DNA of 35,975 nucleotides from Leptolyngbyaceae cyanobacterium HOT.MB2.61 (GTDB lineage Bacteria; Cyanobacteriota; Cyanobacteriia; Leptolyngbyales; Leptolyngbyaceae): positions 1 to 35,975 of the forward strand of contig JAIMBL010000023.1 of NCBI GenBank assembly GCA_023511615.1, written 5' to 3'. Below are positions 8,015 through 16,804 of this stretch, in pieces; position 1 is the stretch's first letter; every line of letters starts with the position of its first letter. Below the pieces are notes generated by a model. It was not told the origin of the DNA, made no database searches, and was given only the letters and a program-made list of their open reading frames with translations. The position numbers were made by a program, and so were the translations under genes.

Positions 8015-9232
8015 ATGGTTTCAACCTCACTCACCCCTCTGCCTGTTGATACCTCTCGCATTCGCAAGGATATCCAGGAACTTCAACCCTATCTTGTGGA
8101 ATGGCGCAGGCATCTTCACCAGAAACCTGAATTGGGCTTCCGTGAGCAATTGACTTCTGAATTTGTGTCTCAAAAGTTGCAGGAGTGGGGTATTGAGCAT
8201 CAAACAGGCATTGCCCAGACGGGAATTGTTGCAATCATTTCGGGCCGACAACCAGGTCCAGTGCTGGCAATCCGGGCAGATATGGATGCTTTGCCAATTC
8301 AAGAAGAAAATGAGGTTCCCTATCGATCGCAACACGATGGCGTTATGCACGCCTGTGGACACGATGGGCACACTGCGATCGCCCTGGGTACTGCCCGTTA
8401 TCTTTCCCAGCATCGGGATTCGTTTGCAGGCACCGTTAAGCTGATCTTCCAGCCAGCGGAAGAAGGACCAGGCGGCGCAAAACCTATGATTGAAGCGGGT
8501 GTGTTAAATAACCCTGATGTGGATGCCATCATCGGGTTGCATCTGTGGAACTTTTTACCCCTCGGTACGGTAGGAGTTCGCAGCGGTCCCTTAATGGCAT
8601 CTGTGGAATTATTCAACTGTACGATCCTGGGCAAAGGCGGACATGGTGCCATTCCCCAACATTCAGTTGATTCGATTGTGGTAGGCGCTCAGGTAGTTAA
8701 TGCTTTGCAGGCGATCGTGGCCCGTAACGTAGATCCGATCGAATCTGCCGTTGTCACCGTTGGCAAATTCCATGCTGGAACCGCCCATAATGTGATCGCG
8801 GCTTCTGCCCAATTGAGTGGAACTGTACGTTACTTCAATCCTGGCTTTGAAGGGTTTTTTCAGGAACGGATAGAGCAAATCATTAGCGGTGTCTGCCAGG
8901 CCCACGGTGCCCACTACGAGTTGGAATACTGCAGTCTGTATCCCCCTGTGATTAACAATGAAAAAATGGCCGAACTGATTCGCTCTGTCACGGCAACGGT
9001 TGTAGAAACTCCCGCTGGGATTGTGCCCCAGTGCCAGACGATGGGCGGAGAAGACATGGCATTCTTCCTCCAAGAAGTTCCTGGCTGCTATTTCTTCCTG
9101 GGTTCTGCCAATCTTTCCAGAGGATTAGCCTACCCTCACCACCACCCCCGCTTTGACTTTGACGAAACCGCTCTCAGCATGGGCGTAGAAATCTTCGCCC
9201 GCTGTGTTGAGAAGTTTTGCCACCCTGGTTAA
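8015..9232 (+). CDS. M20-family amidohydrolase (N-acyl-amino-acid/hippurate hydrolase type)
   Basis: 405 residues, the normal length for bacterial M20D amidohydrolases. These are two-metal enzymes that release an amino acid from an N-acyl amino acid. The metal and catalytic motifs are intact: IRADMDALPI at about 86-95, HACGHDGHTA at about 112-121 (Cys114, His116), FQPAEEGPGG at about 145-154 with the catalytic Glu pair, GLHLWN with His176, and a C-terminal YPHHHPRFDFDE that supplies a late metal ligand. The dimerisation lid domain lies between about 190 and 300. There is no signal peptide, so it should be cytoplasmic. The physiological substrate (acyl-homoserine degradation product, IAA conjugate or peptide) is not determinable. 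The stop codon overlaps the convergent neighbour's stop within TTAA. Confidence 0.9.
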   Translation: MVSTSLTPLPVDTSRIRKDIQELQPYLVEWRRHLHQKPELGFREQLTSEFVSQKLQEWGIEHQTGIAQTGIVAIISGRQPGPVLAIRADMDALPIQEENEVPYRSQHDGVMHACGHDGHTAIALGTARYLSQHRDSFAGTVKLIFQPAEEGPGGAKPMIEAGVLNNPDVDAIIGLHLWNFLPLGTVGVRSGPLMASVELFNCTILGKGGHGAIPQHSVDSIVVGAQVVNALQAIVARNVDPIESAVVTVGKFHAGTAHNVIAASAQLSGTVRYFNPGFEGFFQERIEQIISGVCQAHGAHYELEYCSLYPPVINNEKMAELIRSVTATVVETPAGIVPQCQTMGGEDMAFFLQEVPGCYFFLGSANLSRGLAYPHHHPRFDFDETALSMGVEIFARCVEKFCHPG

Positions 9233-11037
9233 CGGGAGGAAACTACTGTGCAGGAAGCACTGACCTCCGACGGTGGCGGTAGCAGCGCGACCACGTGGGG
9301 AACTGGACGAGGCGTATAACCTACAAGTGAATTCCCCTGATAAGCCAGGGATGTACTGGCACCAGAGTCCAGCATCACCGCATCCCGAAAACCAGCTTTT
9401 GCCAGGGCTTTGCCTAAATCGACTGAGCCAATGGGTTCAACCGAAACCCCAACAACTGGCTGCCCCTGCTGATTGATGCCCCAAAAGGCCCGGTGTCTCG
9501 GCTCATTAAAATCAAAAAGCTTCCCAAACCGCGCGGGAGGTTGGGGCTGTCCATTTTCAACCAGGAATGCCGCTGCCACGAAAGCATCAGTTACGTCTGG
9601 CATTTCTGCCTGGATGCCTTCCAACGTATTGTGCTTCAAATCATTAAATGGAACAAATTTAACCGCATTTGGGCTGATTAAAACCAGTGGACGGTTGTTA
9701 ATGAGAGGAATTTCTCCCTTTCTACCGGGGATGAACTGACCATGAACTTGACTCAAAACTGGACCCAGCATTTCGTTAGAATCAAGCAGTTCCAGGGAGA
9801 AGAAGCCGCCATCCACTGCGGCGATCGCCCCCGTCCCCGATTTTGCCAGAATCTCCGGTACCTGGTAGCGGCTATCGGCATGGATAGTGATTGGCTTTCC
9901 GCCTGAAATGAAGATAAAGGGAGTGCTGTCAATGACCGTTTCTACCTTTCGCACAGGTGATAAAAAATCGAACCCAGGGTTCCAGGCTTGCAACCTGGGG
10001 CCACCCCAGGCAATGTCTACCATCTCTGCCAGGCGAGATTGACCGATGCGCCCCACGGCCAGCAAACTTTCCGACTGCCCCGCCAACTGCTCATCCGCAT
10101 CATTCATTGTGAGTGCAGCGGTATAGCCTGCGGCCTGCACCGCCTGCGCAACCTGGGCATTATATTTTCCTTCTGGGTAGGTAAAATAGCGGATGGGAAT
10201 TCCCAATGTGGCTTCCAGGATCTGCTTTGACTCCTTCAGTTCTTTCTCGACTTCAACAGGGGACAAATCGGGCATCAACCGATGACTGAGACTGTGGGAG
10301 GCGATCGTTACCAGAGGATCAGCGGCCATTTCCCGCAATTGCTCCCAGGTCATACCAGGGCGTCCCAGGCGCTTGTCTATCTTATCGGTATAGATTGAAA
10401 AGACTGCCGGGTAGTTGTACTTCTTCAACAGGGGATAAACGTAGGTATAGTGCCCAACATAACCGTCATCAAAGGTCAGCAGAATGGGTTTTTCGGGCAA
10501 CGGTAGCCCCGTTCGCAGATGGATCACCAGTTGATCCATGCTGATTGGCGTTAACCCCTTTTCCCGGATTAACTTGAGATGCGCCTCAAATTCTTCTGGG
10601 GTGACATCAAAAAATACTTCCTTTTCAGGCAGAATATCGTGGTACATCATCACAGGCACCCTTGCCTGCCGGGCCTGTGCATTAATTTCAGGAAAAGGAC
10701 TGGTATTGAGATAGGCCACCAACTGAGGGGCTACCTGCTCAATCAGCGTACCGATACCAATCGCGGGCTGGTCTACCCAGGTAGCAGTTTGAGTTAAATT
10801 ACTCACCAGTTGCGCCAGGCCCGATGTTGAAGCAGGTAACCCCTGGTTGCATTTGATTGCAGGCGTTTGAATCGGCGTTCCTTCAGGCTGGGCGATCGCT
10901 ATCTTTGCCCCAAAGATAGATAACCCACTCCATATGGGTAACAGAGCTACCAGGCCCCCCGTAACCAGAAACCGATATGGAAACCGAAACCCGGATTTAG
11001 AGAAACTTCCCGGTTGGCGCTCACACCACAAAGGCAT
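9229..11037 (-). CDS. Polysaccharide deacetylase fused to phosphodiester glycosidase (NAGPA/DUF2233-like)
   Basis: 602 residues with a hydrophobic N-terminal segment (about 23-48), so exported or membrane-anchored. Residues about 125-325 are a carbohydrate esterase 4 domain: PVMMYHDIL, the catalytic TFDDGY (Asp190, Asp191), the metal-binding SHSLSH (His248, His252) and YFTYPEGKYN. Residues about 365-595 match the NAGPA/DUF2233 family: TIHADSRYQVP, AAVDGGFF, FWGINQQGQPVVGVS and AVMLDSGASTSLAYQG. The first domain would de-N-acetylate an amino-sugar polymer such as peptidoglycan or exopolysaccharide. The second family cleaves sugar-1-phosphate phosphodiesters. The pairing suggests cell-wall or glycan remodelling in the periplasm. 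It is convergent with the amidohydrolase, with a 4-base overlap. Confidence 0.88.
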   Translation of the reverse strand: MPLWCERQPGSFSKSGFRFPYRFLVTGGLVALLPIWSGLSIFGAKIAIAQPEGTPIQTPAIKCNQGLPASTSGLAQLVSNLTQTATWVDQPAIGIGTLIEQVAPQLVAYLNTSPFPEINAQARQARVPVMMYHDILPEKEVFFDVTPEEFEAHLKLIREKGLTPISMDQLVIHLRTGLPLPEKPILLTFDDGYVGHYTYVYPLLKKYNYPAVFSIYTDKIDKRLGRPGMTWEQLREMAADPLVTIASHSLSHRLMPDLSPVEVEKELKESKQILEATLGIPIRYFTYPEGKYNAQVAQAVQAAGYTAALTMNDADEQLAGQSESLLAVGRIGQSRLAEMVDIAWGGPRLQAWNPGFDFLSPVRKVETVIDSTPFIFISGGKPITIHADSRYQVPEILAKSGTGAIAAVDGGFFSLELLDSNEMLGPVLSQVHGQFIPGRKGEIPLINNRPLVLISPNAVKFVPFNDLKHNTLEGIQAEMPDVTDAFVAAAFLVENGQPQPPARFGKLFDFNEPRHRAFWGINQQGQPVVGVSVEPIGSVDLGKALAKAGFRDAVMLDSGASTSLAYQGNSLVGYTPRPVPHVVALLPPPSEVSASCTVVSSR

Positions 11038-11428: not shown

Positions 11429-11905
11429 ATGCTGAGCTCGTTATATGCCCTAAACACTGAACTGGATGGACGTTATGCAACTGATTCAGAACTCCAAACA
11501 GCAGATCAATTCCTTGACTCCTATACCTTGCGTTTGAGTACCTACCGGAAAATTCAGGTGTTAGAAACTCATATTGTTCAACAGGTACAGACCCGAATTC
11601 GGCAGGTTGACCCTGAGATCATGGTCTATGACAACCGAGATGTCAGCGCTATCTGTGAGCGAGACATGCTGTATGTGTTGCGTTATTCCGCGATCGCCCT
11701 CCTGATTAACGGAACCGACCTGTTAGAAGAACGTGTCTTGCTATGGCTGCAAACCATCATGCGCAGCTTTAAGGATCATCAGCACCGTTCTGACCTGACC
11801 TACCGCATTCTGCAAGAAGTGATTCAGCAATATTTGATTCCAGCCGAAGCTGCGCTATTTTTGCCGGTTCTGGAACTGAACCGCCAATTTTTAGGTATGA
11901 GTTGA
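11429..11905 (+). CDS. Phycobilisome-like (phycobiliprotein-fold) protein with retained CxRD motif
   Basis: 158 residues, all helical, the length of a phycobiliprotein subunit. It aligns with the second phycobilisome-like protein at 13249 (shared RYxTxxEL near residue 15, an LRY motif, a D-x-V-L-L-W-L-Q-like helix). Around the chromophore site it reads C76-E77-R78-D79 followed by YVLRYSAIALLINGTDLLEERVL, which matches the canonical Cys84-x-Arg86-Asp87 and ILRYxxYAxxxGDxxxLxxR of phycobiliproteins. Bilin attachment is thus chemically possible but unproven. Synechocystis Slr0146 is the nearest family I know of. It heads the photosystem-II-assembly-like cluster, with a 292-base gap to the next gene. 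Confidence 0.8.
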   Translation: MLSSLYALNTELDGRYATDSELQTADQFLDSYTLRLSTYRKIQVLETHIVQQVQTRIRQVDPEIMVYDNRDVSAICERDMLYVLRYSAIALLINGTDLLEERVLLWLQTIMRSFKDHQHRSDLTYRILQEVIQQYLIPAEAALFLPVLELNRQFLGMS

Positions 11906-12084: not shown

Positions 12085-12204
12085 ATGGCTGATTCTGCTT
12101 CCACTTTTACTGCTGCTACCTCCAGCGCTGGAGCTGACTGCCTCCTATCTCCCACTTCAGACGCTTTACTCACTCAGACTATTGCCGAGAAACAACTATG
12201 GTGA
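12085..12204 (+). CDS. Candidate 39-residue upstream ORF overlapping the V4R start
   Basis: ATG at 12085 opens a 39-codon frame rich in Ala, Ser and Thr (starts MADSASTFTAATSSAGAD), ending with a TGA at 12202-12204 that overlaps the start of the V4R gene (ATG 12198) in a different register. Such an arrangement could couple translation of the two. There is no clear ribosome-binding site before it and no family match, so it may be chance. The remainder of 11906-12084 shows no clear feature. Confidence 0.25.
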   Translation: MADSASTFTAATSSAGADCLLSPTSDALLTQTIAEKQLW

Positions 12205-12881
12205 TTGCAAACCCTTACCAAAACACTGCCAAGCTCAAGAACCCTAAGAAACACAATCATTACGGGTTTCGGGACTTCTTCCAGTTTGATACTGAACGGG
12301 GCATTATCACGGACTGGAACGATAGCCAGAACGTACTGGCAACAGAAGACTTTATCATTGGGCTGGTTGAGGGTTTAGAAGAAGAGGTGGGGGATGCTTC
12401 CGCAGTCACTATGTACACCATTGGTTGCGAGTGGGGCCAGAAAGATGCCTTTTTCTTCGAGAAATGGTTTCAGAAGGAGTTTGACCGCAACCTCCGTCAG
12501 ACGAATCTGCTGTTTTTGCTAGAAACCTGGTGGTGGCCCTTCACCTCCCAGGGCTGGGGACGCTGGGAAGTAGATATGGGCGATCGCAAGCAGGGCTTCA
12601 TGTTCATCAACATTTTTGACTCTGCCATCGCTCGTACCCTGGGCGATGTGGGTAAACCCGTCTGCTATCTCTATGCCGGACTGTTTGCTGGATTCTTCAC
12701 TGAAATGGTTAAAAAGCAACTGAGCTGTATCGAAATTCAGTGCTACTCCATGGGTGAAACCTACTGTAAATTTCTGTTGGGTGGGCAAGACCGGATTGAT
12801 GCCGCCTCATTCTGGCTCAATGAAGGGGCTACCGCCAAAGACATTGAGAAGCGCCTGCGGGCAGGAGAACTGCTGCGATGA
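12198..12881 (+). CDS. V4R-domain protein, Slr0144-like
   Basis: 227 residues with the V4R (4-vinyl-reductase-like) domain in the C-terminal half. V4R domains are small-molecule or metal-binding modules found in BchJ-type proteins. Five cysteines (77, 156, 177, 182, 190) are conserved with the second V4R protein at 13908; the last four sit in PVCYLYAG, LSC, QCYSMG and YCKFLLGG. An aromatic stretch (ETWWWPFTSQGWGRW, about 109-123) precedes the domain. In Synechocystis the homologue lies in the slr0144-slr0152 operon, whose loss impairs photosystem II assembly or accumulation. The gene overlaps the next one by ATGA, so the two are translationally coupled. The start has little Shine-Dalgarno character. 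Confidence 0.82.
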   Translation: MVIANPYQNTAKLKNPKKHNHYGFRDFFQFDTERGIITDWNDSQNVLATEDFIIGLVEGLEEEVGDASAVTMYTIGCEWGQKDAFFFEKWFQKEFDRNLRQTNLLFLLETWWWPFTSQGWGRWEVDMGDRKQGFMFINIFDSAIARTLGDVGKPVCYLYAGLFAGFFTEMVKKQLSCIEIQCYSMGETYCKFLLGGQDRIDAASFWLNEGATAKDIEKRLRAGELLR

Positions 12882-13192
12882 GTACTATGACTCTACCCCA
12901 CACCAATGGCTCCAAAGTTCGGCATCCATCCCAGTCCTGGATGCAAATCTCCGTTCAGAAATTCTTTACCGCCATCAACTGGGAAGATAACCCACCCGAA
13001 GTTCAACAGGTAAAACTGGCTGCTTCTGAGCCCAACAGTGTCAGTACTCTCAGCATGACCATGAGTGTGAGTCAGTTCTTTGCAGCGCTGAACTGGGATG
13101 GCAATGCGATCGCCACCGCCCCCCAGAACCAGCCCTCCCAGCAGCCCAAGCCCGACGAAATTACCCTTGACGACTTCTCAAGCCTCTTCTAG
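12878..13192 (+). CDS. Slr0145-like short protein with repeated FF-x-A-x-N-W motif
   Basis: 104 residues, low in regular domain features. It contains two copies of a short motif, SVQKFFTAINWEDN (about 25-38) and SVSQFFAALNWDGN (about 63-76), each preceded by Met-x-(I/M) and separated by a variable linker, plus a terminal DEITLDDFSSLF. The pattern looks like repeated short linear motifs for docking onto a partner. Position and size match Synechocystis slr0145 in the photosystem-II-assembly operon. It starts inside the stop of the V4R gene (4-base overlap) and ends 56 bases before the second phycobilisome-like gene. Biochemical function is unknown. Confidence 0.75.
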   Translation: MSTMTLPHTNGSKVRHPSQSWMQISVQKFFTAINWEDNPPEVQQVKLAASEPNSVSTLSMTMSVSQFFAALNWDGNAIATAPQNQPSQQPKPDEITLDDFSSLF

Positions 13193-13248: not shown

Positions 13249-13734
13249 ATGCATCCACAAATTGAAGCCATCTTTGACGAAGCTGAAAACCGCTACCTTA
13301 CTCCTGACGAGTTGGGTCTCATCAGCCAATACGTTGATTCTCTACCTGAACGACTGGAAGCCTACCGTACTCTTAGAGACCGAGAGCTAGAAGTAATGCA
13401 ACGGGTAGCAGACCAGTTGCAGGCCGCCATGCCCCAGGAGGATGTCAAGAATCTGGAACGCAGCATCAAAAATGCTCTGCTGCTGCTGCGCTACTGTGCC
13501 ATGGGCATGCTCCTGGATGATGAGTCCTTTGTTAAGGACAGGTTGTTAGGGTGGCTCCAGGGAACGTTGAGTTCATACAATATTCAAGCCATTGATTCCA
13601 CGCTCTACCGCCTGTTGAATCAGCAACTGTCCCAAACCCTCAGTGCCAGTCAGTTGAATCTTTTCACCCCCATCCTGACTATGGCTCAAAACAGCCTGCT
13701 ACAAAATACCCCTGCCCTGGCGATGGTCTCTTAG
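13249..13734 (+). CDS. Phycobilisome-like protein without bilin cysteine, Slr0146-like
   Basis: 161 residues, all helical, paralogous to the protein at 11429. It keeps RYLTPDEL (about 15-22) and the central LLLLRYCAMGMLLDDESFVKDRLLGWLQ helix, but at the chromophore position reads S72-I73-K74-N75 instead of C-x-R-D, so covalent bilin binding by the usual cysteine is not expected. The position, between the Slr0145-like and second V4R genes, matches slr0146. It may act as a structural partner or as a heterodimer with the upstream paralogue, by analogy with phycobiliprotein alpha/beta pairs; this is inference. The gap to the next gene is 173 bases and includes a purine-rich spacer. Confidence 0.8.
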   Translation: MHPQIEAIFDEAENRYLTPDELGLISQYVDSLPERLEAYRTLRDRELEVMQRVADQLQAAMPQEDVKNLERSIKNALLLLRYCAMGMLLDDESFVKDRLLGWLQGTLSSYNIQAIDSTLYRLLNQQLSQTLSASQLNLFTPILTMAQNSLLQNTPALAMVS

Positions 13735-13907: not shown

Positions 13908-14564
13908 ATGATTTCTGTCGCTGATCTTCTGGTTGATAACCGCATTCCCGGTAACTACTATGCTACAGATGCTTATGTGCGCAGCGATCTGGAAATGGGC
14001 TTGTTGGAAAATCGTCGCGGCGATCGCCTGCTGGCGCTTCCAGAAACCCTGATTCAAGCTATTTACTCTGGGCTAGAAAAAGAAACAGGTCAGGCATCTC
14101 GTTTGGTGCTGCGCAATTGTGGTCGCTGGTGGGGCAAAAACTTTTACGTCCGCTTTCGGGAGGAGCTGACTGAGTATTACGGCACCTCACTGGCAGACAT
14201 GCCTATGGTTGAGTTTCTCCAATGTCTTAAATCCTGCTGGATCACCTACGGCTGGGGCAAGATTGACCTAGATCAAACTCACCATCATCGAGGCTTCCTG
14301 ATTATCAAAACCTGGAATTCCCCCTTTGCGAGATTGGCTCCTAAAGGCGATCGCCCCGTATGCCATCTGGAAGCGGGCGTCTTAGGAGCCTTCTTCAGCC
14401 AACTGACAGGTAAAGATTTATCCTGCGTTCAAACAACCTGCGAATCCTTAGGGGCAGACTGCAACCGCTTTATTCTTGGCCTGACCAAACGGGTAGAGCC
14501 GATCGAAGCCATGGTTGAAAGCCGATTAGATCACGATACTATTCTGCAAAAGCTTTGTGCTTGA
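13908..14564 (+). CDS. V4R-domain protein, Slr0147-like
   Basis: 218 residues with the same architecture as the protein at 12198: C71 (RNCGRWWGKNF), then C152, C173, C178 and C185 in PVCHLEAG, LSC, TCESLG and DCNRFILG. The spacing is nearly identical to the paralogue. All five cysteines are shared, which argues for a metal or iron-sulfur site or for redox disulfides. A His-rich turn, THHHRGF (about 124-130), is specific to this copy. By order it corresponds to slr0147. In Synechocystis ferredoxin genes follow; here a repeat element and the SpkG-like kinase follow instead. Confidence 0.82.
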   Translation: MISVADLLVDNRIPGNYYATDAYVRSDLEMGLLENRRGDRLLALPETLIQAIYSGLEKETGQASRLVLRNCGRWWGKNFYVRFREELTEYYGTSLADMPMVEFLQCLKSCWITYGWGKIDLDQTHHHRGFLIIKTWNSPFARLAPKGDRPVCHLEAGVLGAFFSQLTGKDLSCVQTTCESLGADCNRFILGLTKRVEPIEAMVESRLDHDTILQKLCA

Positions 14565-14824: not shown

Positions 14825-16804
14825 GTGTCCAACTTCCTTGTAAAAGAGCTAAAGGGTTCCAGGTATCGGCTCCTTGGGTTGGTTGGACAAGGACAGTTTG
14901 GACGGGTTTACTGTGCGAGCCATCGTCGAACAGGTCATCTCGTTGCCCTAAAAGAGCTTAACAAAGAGCGGTTTCCCACCCGTAATTTTTTGCGTGAACT
15001 ACGCTTTCTGTTGAGCTTACAGCACCCTAATATAGTGAACTGCCACGCCCTGGAGCATACCCGGACAGGGCGTTATCTAGTCATGGACTACTGCGAAGGA
15101 GGAACGCTGCGCAGCCTGATGGAGGAAGGCGTTCGCTTACATCCCGCCCAGAGCTTGAAATTGATCGCCGATGTGCTGGCAGGCCTGGACCACGCCCATA
15201 GTCAGGGCATTATTCACTGTGACATCAAACCAGAAAACATTCTGCTGACGGTTCAACCCGATGGTTGGATGGCCCATATCTCTGACTTTGGTATTGCGCG
15301 ACTGAGCCGGGAAATTTCTAAAGACGGGACAGGCAATACGGGTTCCCCTGCCTATATGGCTCCTGAGCGATTTTATGGACAACACTCACAATCATCTGAC
15401 CTTTATGCAGTTGGTATTCTACTATTTGAGCTGCTGACAGGTTATCGACCGTTTTCAGGTTCTCCGGCAGAACTGATGTCTGCCCATCTGAATCAACCTG
15501 TCAAGCTGCCTGACACCATGCCACCAGGTTTACAAACCATTATTTTGACGGCCTTGCAGAAACTACCTGCTCGCCGCTTTCGGTCTGCGCTAGAGATGTT
15601 GACCCAAATTCAAGCAGCCACCGAAAACCTGAAATCGGAGTTGGATGAAGCGTGGCTATTTCCTAAACTGCTGCAACTGGCTGTTAGCCTGCCGGTATCT
15701 CCCTTAAAACCTCTATGTCAGGAAATCTTGGCAGCAGAAGTGAAACAGTTGAAAGTAGAGGGTTTTCAGCAGTTGCCTCCCTCCAGTCCTGTTGACTGGA
15801 AAATTGAGCAGCCGAGGTCGGCTCAAAGGCCAGAGAACGATGAAGGTGAGCGGCTATATCGAGCATTTGGCTGTTACGTAGGATGCCAAACTTACCCTGA
15901 TGGTATTTTGCGGCAGGGGACGATCCCAGAAAAAATCACGTTGGCAACGGTTCGTCTACCTGACCCAGTCCGGCAGATAATGGTGCGCCCGCAGGGATGT
16001 TTTGTCGTTACCCATCGCTCTATCTATCGCATTCCGCTAGGGTTGTTTTGGCCCGGTGTGGCTCAACATGAGCAAAAGCGATTGCAGCATACAGGGTTTG
16101 AAAGTGAACTGCCCATTCACCATCAGGTACCCCAGCTAATTGCGGAGTTCTGGCAGGATTTTGTAGCAGCGATCGCTCCCAACGGGGCATGGATGGCAAC
16201 AGCCGTTGCGGATCGAGATCAAGGGAATACGAAGCTTAGCATCTGGCACCTGTCTCGGATGCAGCCAATCAAATCTGTTTTTGGCTCCTCAGCCCATCTC
16301 TTCCAACTAATGGTGCTGGATTCGCGTCATGTAGCAACGTTTTCTCATAGGGTGGATTCGCAAAGCACAATTTGCATTACGGGAGTTTTGATTGAGGTGT
16401 TTACCCGGCGTGGAAATCAAGTAGGCTCCCTCAATTTGCCCGTTCCTCTCCGCAGTCTGGTTAGTAGCCCGGTTCCCTACAGGCTAATGGCAATGGAGCC
16501 AGCCAATTCTGACACGGTGCTATTGATTGATTTGAAGCCCCTCAGAATTTCGCGGATTGGGGTGGAAATCTCTCCAGTTCTGGCGGAGGCTGCCTCCTGG
16601 GGTTACGTTTTAATGGATGCAACTGGACAGATTGTGCTGTTAGACAGGTATGGGCAGCCCTTTGGACGGATTGATGGACCAGCTCACCCCACAGCGATCG
16701 CCATTCTCGATCCCTATGGTTTACTCATCTCAACCTGGAACAATGGGCAGGGAAGCCTCTATACCCTTGATCTGCGTCAGGCAGAGCTAGATTTTTTGTT
16801 TTAA
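14825..16804 (+). CDS. spkG: Serine/threonine protein kinase, SpkG-like
   Basis: 659 residues. The kinase domain spans about 14-275: glycine loop GQGQFGRV (21-28), Lys43 in VALKEL, Glu58, catalytic loop HCDIKPENIL (131-140), DFG (154-156) and APE (179-181). The loop has Cys in place of the Arg of HRD, so it is a non-RD kinase and probably does not need activation-loop phosphorylation. Residues about 345-659 are beta-rich and could form a propeller-like sensor; no transmembrane segment is evident. Synechocystis SpkG (Slr0152) ends the slr0144-slr0152 operon and was reported to phosphorylate the ferredoxin encoded there. The start is GTG, because the upstream codon is a stop and the ATG two bases earlier is out of frame. 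Confidence 0.82.
   Translation: MSNFLVKELKGSRYRLLGLVGQGQFGRVYCASHRRTGHLVALKELNKERFPTRNFLRELRFLLSLQHPNIVNCHALEHTRTGRYLVMDYCEGGTLRSLMEEGVRLHPAQSLKLIADVLAGLDHAHSQGIIHCDIKPENILLTVQPDGWMAHISDFGIARLSREISKDGTGNTGSPAYMAPERFYGQHSQSSDLYAVGILLFELLTGYRPFSGSPAELMSAHLNQPVKLPDTMPPGLQTIILTALQKLPARRFRSALEMLTQIQAATENLKSELDEAWLFPKLLQLAVSLPVSPLKPLCQEILAAEVKQLKVEGFQQLPPSSPVDWKIEQPRSAQRPENDEGERLYRAFGCYVGCQTYPDGILRQGTIPEKITLATVRLPDPVRQIMVRPQGCFVVTHRSIYRIPLGLFWPGVAQHEQKRLQHTGFESELPIHHQVPQLIAEFWQDFVAAIAPNGAWMATAVADRDQGNTKLSIWHLSRMQPIKSVFGSSAHLFQLMVLDSRHVATFSHRVDSQSTICITGVLIEVFTRRGNQVGSLNLPVPLRSLVSSPVPYRLMAMEPANSDTVLLIDLKPLRISRIGVEISPVLAEAASWGYVLMDATGQIVLLDRYGQPFGRIDGPAHPTAIAILDPYGLLISTWNNGQGSLYTLDLRQAELDFLF

Follow-up and report, generated by a model that had tools for sequence, protein, structure and literature searches.

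The 35,975-nt stretch of DNA from Leptolyngbyaceae cyanobacterium HOT.MB2.61 that we analyzed (contig JAIMBL010000023.1 of assembly GCA_023511615.1; hereafter, the window) encodes two phycobilisome-like proteins, only one of which displays the C-x-R-D motif for bilin attachment. A first-pass annotation, made from the sequence alone, took this motif as retained, compared the two proteins with an alpha/beta phycobiliprotein pair, and raised the possibility of a bilin-carrying sensor or quencher acting with V4R proteins and a kinase. The locus thus raises the question of what kind of globin this is, whether its bilin site is functional and ancestral, and in which process it acts.

A bilin-site motif in a photosystem-assembly cluster

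Residues 11-149 of the first globin (BBAG-A, as named below) matched Pfam PF00502 with E=6e-18 and 65.7 bits (cutoff 22.2), and a phmmer search of the PDB placed C76-x-R78-D79 in gap-free register with the bilin Cys-x-Arg-Asp of ApcF/ApcB-type chains, with the ApcF-type chain 7eyd_Q9 as best match (E=2.3e-08). The AlphaFold model (pLDDT 81, pTM 0.78) adopts the phycobiliprotein fold, with Z of 16-17 against allophycocyanins over about 154 residues and ~20% identity in the structural alignments. It places C76 at the start of helix 73-93, and C76-E77-R78-D79 is followed by MLYVLRYSAIALLINGTDLLEER. Domain match, PDB alignment, and fold all bear out the assignment of C76-E-R-D to the phycobiliprotein bilin site. 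The second globin (BBAG-B) reads S72-I-K-N75 at this site, matched PF00502 with 41.4 bits, and was also modeled with the phycobiliprotein fold (pLDDT 88), which upholds the first-pass description of a paralogue devoid of the chromophore site. The contrast between C-E-R-D and S-I-K-N is correct as a sequence observation, far beyond chance. For residue 76, the window has the codon TGT (11654-11656), whereas a majority of its close orthologues use TGG and thus encode Trp. Since a complete congener genome encodes a 72% identical BBAG-A, likewise with CERD and TGT, Cys76 of the window is no sequencing error.

Table 1. Features of the cluster in the window
Feature	Position	Strand	Evidence
BBAG-A, Slr0149-type globin, 158 aa, Cys form C-E-R-D	11429..11905	+	PF00502, phylogeny, fold
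C76-E77-R78-D79 bilin-attachment motif, codons TGT GAG CGA GAC	11654..11665	+	Sequence, orthologue codons
V4R-domain protein A (V4R-A), Slr0144-like	12198..12881	+	PF02830 (76.6 bits); conserved neighbor
Slr0145-like small protein, 104 aa; 4-nt overlap with V4R-A stop	12878..13192	+	Position conserved at related loci (between V4R-A and BBAG-B)
BBAG-B, Slr0146-type paralogue, 161 aa, S-I-K-N for C-x-R-D	13249..13734	+	PF00502, clade, site tally, model
V4R-domain protein B (V4R-B), Slr0147-like	13908..14564	+	PF02830 (59.6 bits)
Ser/Thr protein kinase, SpkG (Slr0152) position	14825..16804	+	PF00069 (176 bits)

The genes in Table 1 form the known slr0144-slr0152-type photosystem-assembly cluster; the proposal of an assembly-type cluster with V4R and kinase neighbors therefore stands. 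The genome has no V4R genes besides V4R-A and V4R-B, and together with the Slr0145-like gene and BBAG-B these two are grouped across cyanobacteria, usually with genes for a 2Fe-2S protein and SpkG; a kinase likewise occupies the SpkG position in most Leptolyngbya-type clusters. The Slr0145-like protein matched no Pfam family. The single Fe-S orthologue lies outside the cluster, on contig C358, and in the complete congener genome this gene is 127 kb away from the cluster; an Fe-S gene within the cluster is typical of cyanobacterial BBAGs, but not a requirement. Within the cluster, scans for promoters and terminators did not rise above chance level. In Synechocystis, Slr0144-Slr0149 interact on the thylakoid, as validated by AP-MS (PMC9880817), and operon mutants show slower growth and lower PSII activity (PMC9145668), which ties the cluster to photosystem assembly and repair.

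Two further genes flank this region. A divergent frame (9229-11037, minus strand) encodes a fusion of polysaccharide deacetylase (PF01522) and phosphodiester glycosidase (PF09992) domains, and an NnrU-family membrane protein (PF07298; 16850-17560, plus strand) is encoded directly downstream of the kinase. The NnrU family includes zeta-carotene isomerase.

The two globins are BBAGs outside the light-harvesting clade

Bilin biosynthesis-associated globins (BBAGs), named by Rockwell, Martin and Lagarias in 2023, constitute a lineage sister to the light-harvesting phycobiliproteins and include cyanobacterial members, some of them with CXRD, in gene clusters described as "quite variable" (PMC10151467). 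In E. coli, BBAG-1 and BBAG-3, which carry CXRD, attach bilins autonomously, without lyases; the main text of that work does not report reconstitution of any cyanobacterial BBAG (PMC10151467). In our tree, a branch with 100% SH-aLRT support split 139 BBAG rows from ten light-harvesting-type rows, and both window globins fell outside the light-harvesting clade, with the 13249-13734 protein in clade BBAG-B. The protein encoded at 11429-11905 is thus a Slr0149-type cyanobacterial BBAG, an already known kind of protein; the equation of BBAG-A with Slr0149 and of BBAG-B with Slr0146 is based on gene order and on the naming of Slr0149 in PMC10151467. Identity with Photoglobin (BBAG-2) was rejected: the cluster proteins have no B12-binding domain, and the motif is CERD, not CXQD or RGMC.

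The ApcF-type best match in the PDB could suggest instead a diverged subunit of the allophycocyanin type, docked in the core of the phycobilisome. We regard this as most improbable, given the ~20% structural identity, the position outside the light-harvesting clade, the clustering of BBAG-A with V4R genes, and the 14 full-scoring phycobilisome proteins encoded elsewhere in the genome. Indeed, BBAG-A stays far under every NCBIfam cut-off for light-harvesting equivalogs (ApcB, 45.6 bits vs 228; ApcA, 26.9 vs 270).

A bilin photosensor or quencher that signals via the neighboring kinase would fit the CxRD motif and the kinase that adjoins the cluster in the window and in many relatives. However, the BBAGs reconstituted in 2023 were photoinactive or weakly fluorescent (PMC10151467), several lineages have the kinase at another place or differently oriented, and BBAG-A is fused to no output domain. 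We found no specific support for this idea, which appears very unlikely, and published work links the cluster to the assembly and repair of photosystems (PMC9145668, PMC9880817).

BBAG-A and BBAG-B co-occur at 97 of the 103 loci that have both V4R genes. In a set of 99 different BBAG-B-type sequences, Ser (56) is the commonest residue at the Cys position, ahead of Ala (21) and Cys (11, of which one, the CKYD row of locus L093, belongs to another tree group), and 88 have Asn, His, or Gln at the Asp position. Since the Asp position has also changed in almost all members, BBAG-B lost the whole site and not Cys alone. This loss and the joint occurrence at V4R loci identify the two globins as old paralogues, so the analogy with alpha/beta phycobiliprotein pairs does not apply to these proteins, both of them placed outside the light-harvesting clade. 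Four genomes (L046, L047, L082, and L085) instead encode a tandem pair of BBAG-A, with CRRD in each copy, next to V4R-A; the locus stretches examined contained no BBAG-B. In Elainella sp. Prado103 (L170), BBAG-A reads C-L-Y-D and BBAG-B C-L-K-N, with Cys at the site in both paralogues.

Position 76 alternates strictly between Cys and Trp

Within the family of the window species, most genomes encode W-K-R-D, and one other genome of the genus encodes CERD. Of the best 80 named orthologues nearest the window protein, 72 have Trp (always TGG) and eight Cys; this set came from a contig scan with one peptide pattern and represents a near-query sample, not a phylum-wide frequency. A lack of the Cys in most orthologues, which the first-pass annotation named as grounds for refutation, is thus found among these near relatives. 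Yet in the full set of 144 distinct sequences, made up of 138 BBAG-A and six outgroup rows, position 76 is Trp in 95 and Cys in 49, and nothing else, with at least 13 changes between them by parsimony. All other columns in the 8-25 step range show four or more residue types; position 76 alone has two. A single third-position change, TGG to TGT or TGC, switches the residue, and although the one-step neighbors of TGG also include Arg, Gly, Leu, and Ser codons, Cys alone was observed. This strict alternation is our strongest evidence that position 76 is under a functional two-way constraint. Well-supported recent switches occur in L119 (a WKRD genus), L164/L193/L221, L170, Tychonema/Microcoleus (CRGD and CRAD), and L041/L045, all of them independent of the placement of the window genus in the 73-row tree. 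L164 is Alkalinema CAN_BIN05, with CKRD, and the related L176 has WKRD.

In phycobiliproteins, the Asp at the position equivalent to Asp79 is the ligand of the bilin nitrogens. Asp79 is present in 95 of 95 Trp rows and 46 of 47 Cys rows. The Trp rows further share K75 (94/95), T80 (82/95), and R82 (88/95), while R82 occurs in two Cys rows only, both young Microcoleus-type switches. When nine independent Cys/Trp pairs were compared, R82 was associated with Trp by 5.9 to 0 and T80 by 6.2 to 1, and A117, S120, and F107 are likewise coupled with Trp; with 334 states tested over nine pairs, uncorrected, this coupling is a lead. Adjacency of the Fe-S gene showed no association with the Cys/Trp state in independent pairs. 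Arg78 varies freely and is replaced in several Cys forms (CRGD, CRAD, CRQD, and CLYD), so not every Cys form is a full CxRD. From these patterns, the Cys form may be described as C-x-(R)-D with a non-basic residue 82, and the Trp form as K75-W76-x-x-D79-T80-x-R82, in which K75, D79, and R82 would share one helix face (i, i+4, i+7).

These data bear on whether the pocket is empty, with BBAG-A serving the V4R complex as a structural subunit in apo form, in which Cys or Trp merely alters packing at the start of helix E. The prevalence of Trp among the nearest relatives, the free variation of Arg78, and the loss of the whole site in BBAG-B of the same cluster speak for it. A packing site should nevertheless admit Phe, Leu, Met, or Tyr, and none of these occurs in the 144 sequences despite 13 changes; moreover, Asp79 is near-invariant in both forms. 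We consider an empty pocket rather unlikely; the strict Cys/Trp alternation and the near-invariant Asp79 argue that the BBAG-A pocket is still functional.

A literature search retrieved no report of Trp in place of the chromophore Cys, although the SI figures of PMC10151467 may show it, and the passages of PMC12152189 covered do not describe Trp in place of the Cys in far-red phycobiliproteins. The protein family itself is known; the Cys/Trp switch appears unreported in the literature searched.

The Cys of the window genus was most likely regained

On the 144-row tree, all models that allow reversal reconstruct Trp for the stem of the window genus, with P(Cys) near 0. A model restricted to losses fits worse by 58 log units and requires 31 of them. 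A careful 73-row tree gave a P(Cys) of 0.0001 at the parent node of the genus, and this value exceeded 0.5 in one of 100 bootstrap trees. A tree of the two neighboring V4R proteins, which is independent of BBAG-A, nests the genus within a group of 23 rows (99 SH-aLRT) whose other members are mostly Trp lineages, with seven Trp-to-Cys events inferred. When residues 66-90 were omitted, the BBAG-A tree also kept the genus with Trp lineages, outside a supported group (97/91) that includes the unicellular Cys forms. Gene trees and V4R tree thus indicate that Cys76 was most likely regained from Trp, and not retained as proposed at first.

Alternatively, the window genus could have kept an ancestral Cys, or transfer or gene conversion could have brought in a Cys-type BBAG-A from a unicellular lineage. 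Relationships near the genus are poorly resolved in the BBAG-A gene tree, and the segment R70-D-V-S-x-I-C-x-R-D-M of the window protein resembles that of the unicellular Cys clade. The AU test did not reject joining the genus with this clade (p 0.26), nor did it on a larger quick tree (p 0.84), where the constrained tree was 25 log units better; this large tree was not fully optimized, and our conclusions rest on the 73-row, V4R, and site-region-free trees. Besides the placement among Trp lineages in the latter two, the locus order, with BBAG-A ahead of V4R-A, is of the Leptolyngbya and not of the unicellular type, and retention without any regain would require the 31 losses. We therefore deem a kept or transferred Cys unlikely and favor regain.

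Relaxed constraint or decay after the Trp-to-Cys change was also considered but is not supported: dN is higher for BBAG-A than for V4R-A, but dN/dS is ~0.1-0.2 (unsaturated dS) and the range of Trp-Trp pairs overlaps.

Other phycobiliprotein-related genes

The genome encodes a third divergent PF00502 protein (L039:6564-7037, contig C310; 157 aa) with C-K-Y-D, Tyr replacing Arg, followed by a 235-aa phycobilisome linker-domain protein (L039:7217-7924; PF00427, 129.8 bits); relatives with CKYD, CHYD, or CQYD occur in several other genomes (L088, L093, L095, L097, and L098). A canonical-type phycobiliprotein (L008; contig C100:19063-19530) has Y-L-R-D for C-L-R-D and groups with an ApcF-like row; it is probably a far-red ApcF2, a protein described as Cys-less (PMC12152189). 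PcyA-family genes are present in the genome outside the BBAG cluster, and one PcyA-family frame (PF05996; contig C339:19175-19801), just upstream of two phycobiliprotein genes, has one internal TAA and is possibly a pseudogene or an assembly error.

A putative tetrapyrrole-binding subunit of the V4R complex

Taken as a whole, we consider it somewhat more likely than not that BBAG-A is a Slr0149-type BBAG with a two-form bilin site, a tetrapyrrole-carrying or -sensing subunit of the V4R complex whose Cys was most likely regained in the window genus. Bilin binding by BBAG-A is inferred. In either form, the near-invariant Asp79 would hold the pyrrole nitrogens of a linear tetrapyrrole. The Cys form, with D79 free for this role as in phycobiliproteins, would anchor the bilin through a thioether, and hence covalently in the window genome, whereas Trp would pack on the bilin without a bond or fill the ring-A end of the pocket, with K75 and R82 paired with D79 or with ligand carboxylates. 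BBAG-A would thereby act in a thylakoid complex with two V4R proteins, a 2Fe-2S protein, and the site-less BBAG-B, supporting photosystem assembly or repair and not light harvesting, and the SpkG-like kinase might play a regulatory part.

More specifically, and only tentatively, BBAG-A may be a tetrapyrrole carrier with a two-state site, covalent in the Cys form, in which the Trp form (K75, T80, R82) holds the same or a different tetrapyrrole unbonded. If so, the Cys/Trp alternation would mark a chemically defined ligand choice inside a photosystem-assembly complex, switched by one base change in parallel in many lineages. A site that toggles many times between Cys and Trp alone offers a natural mutagenesis series and predicts species with covalent bilin on Slr0149-like proteins; close Cys/Trp pairs (within Tychonema; Alkalinema and its sisters) would allow a direct test of bilin handling by the complex. 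It also warns that CxRD is not safely read as an inherited ancestral trait.

Comparison with known systems

The far-red ApcE2, ApcF2, and ApcD3 provide a precedent for Cys-less bilin pockets and for a Cys that varies between species: Cys-less ApcE2 and ApcF2 bind bilin non-covalently, and ApcD3 keeps the Cys in 27% of sequences (PMC12152189). Unlike BBAG-A, these three serve light harvesting in the core of the phycobilisome. The heterotrophic bacterial BBAG-1 and BBAG-3 share CXRD and the V4R and Fe-S neighbors with the cyanobacterial type, but adjoin pre-PcyA and usually heme oxygenase (PMC10151467), whereas the window cluster contains no bilin reductase. The slr0144-slr0152 operon (Wegener et al. 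2008, as cited in PMC9145668) matches the window in gene content and kinase, while the window genus has BBAG-A ahead of V4R-A and no Fe-S gene in the cluster. The Slr0149-like cyanobacterial BBAGs, e.g., Slr0149 of Synechocystis PCC 6803 (PMC10151467), have in common with BBAG-A the domain, the cluster with two V4R genes, the phylogenetic separation from light-harvesting phycobiliproteins, and, in some members, CXRD. The window protein differs from them in the 2Fe-2S gene, located elsewhere in its genus, and in its placement within a lineage group that has Trp for Cys, in which its own Cys was most likely regained.
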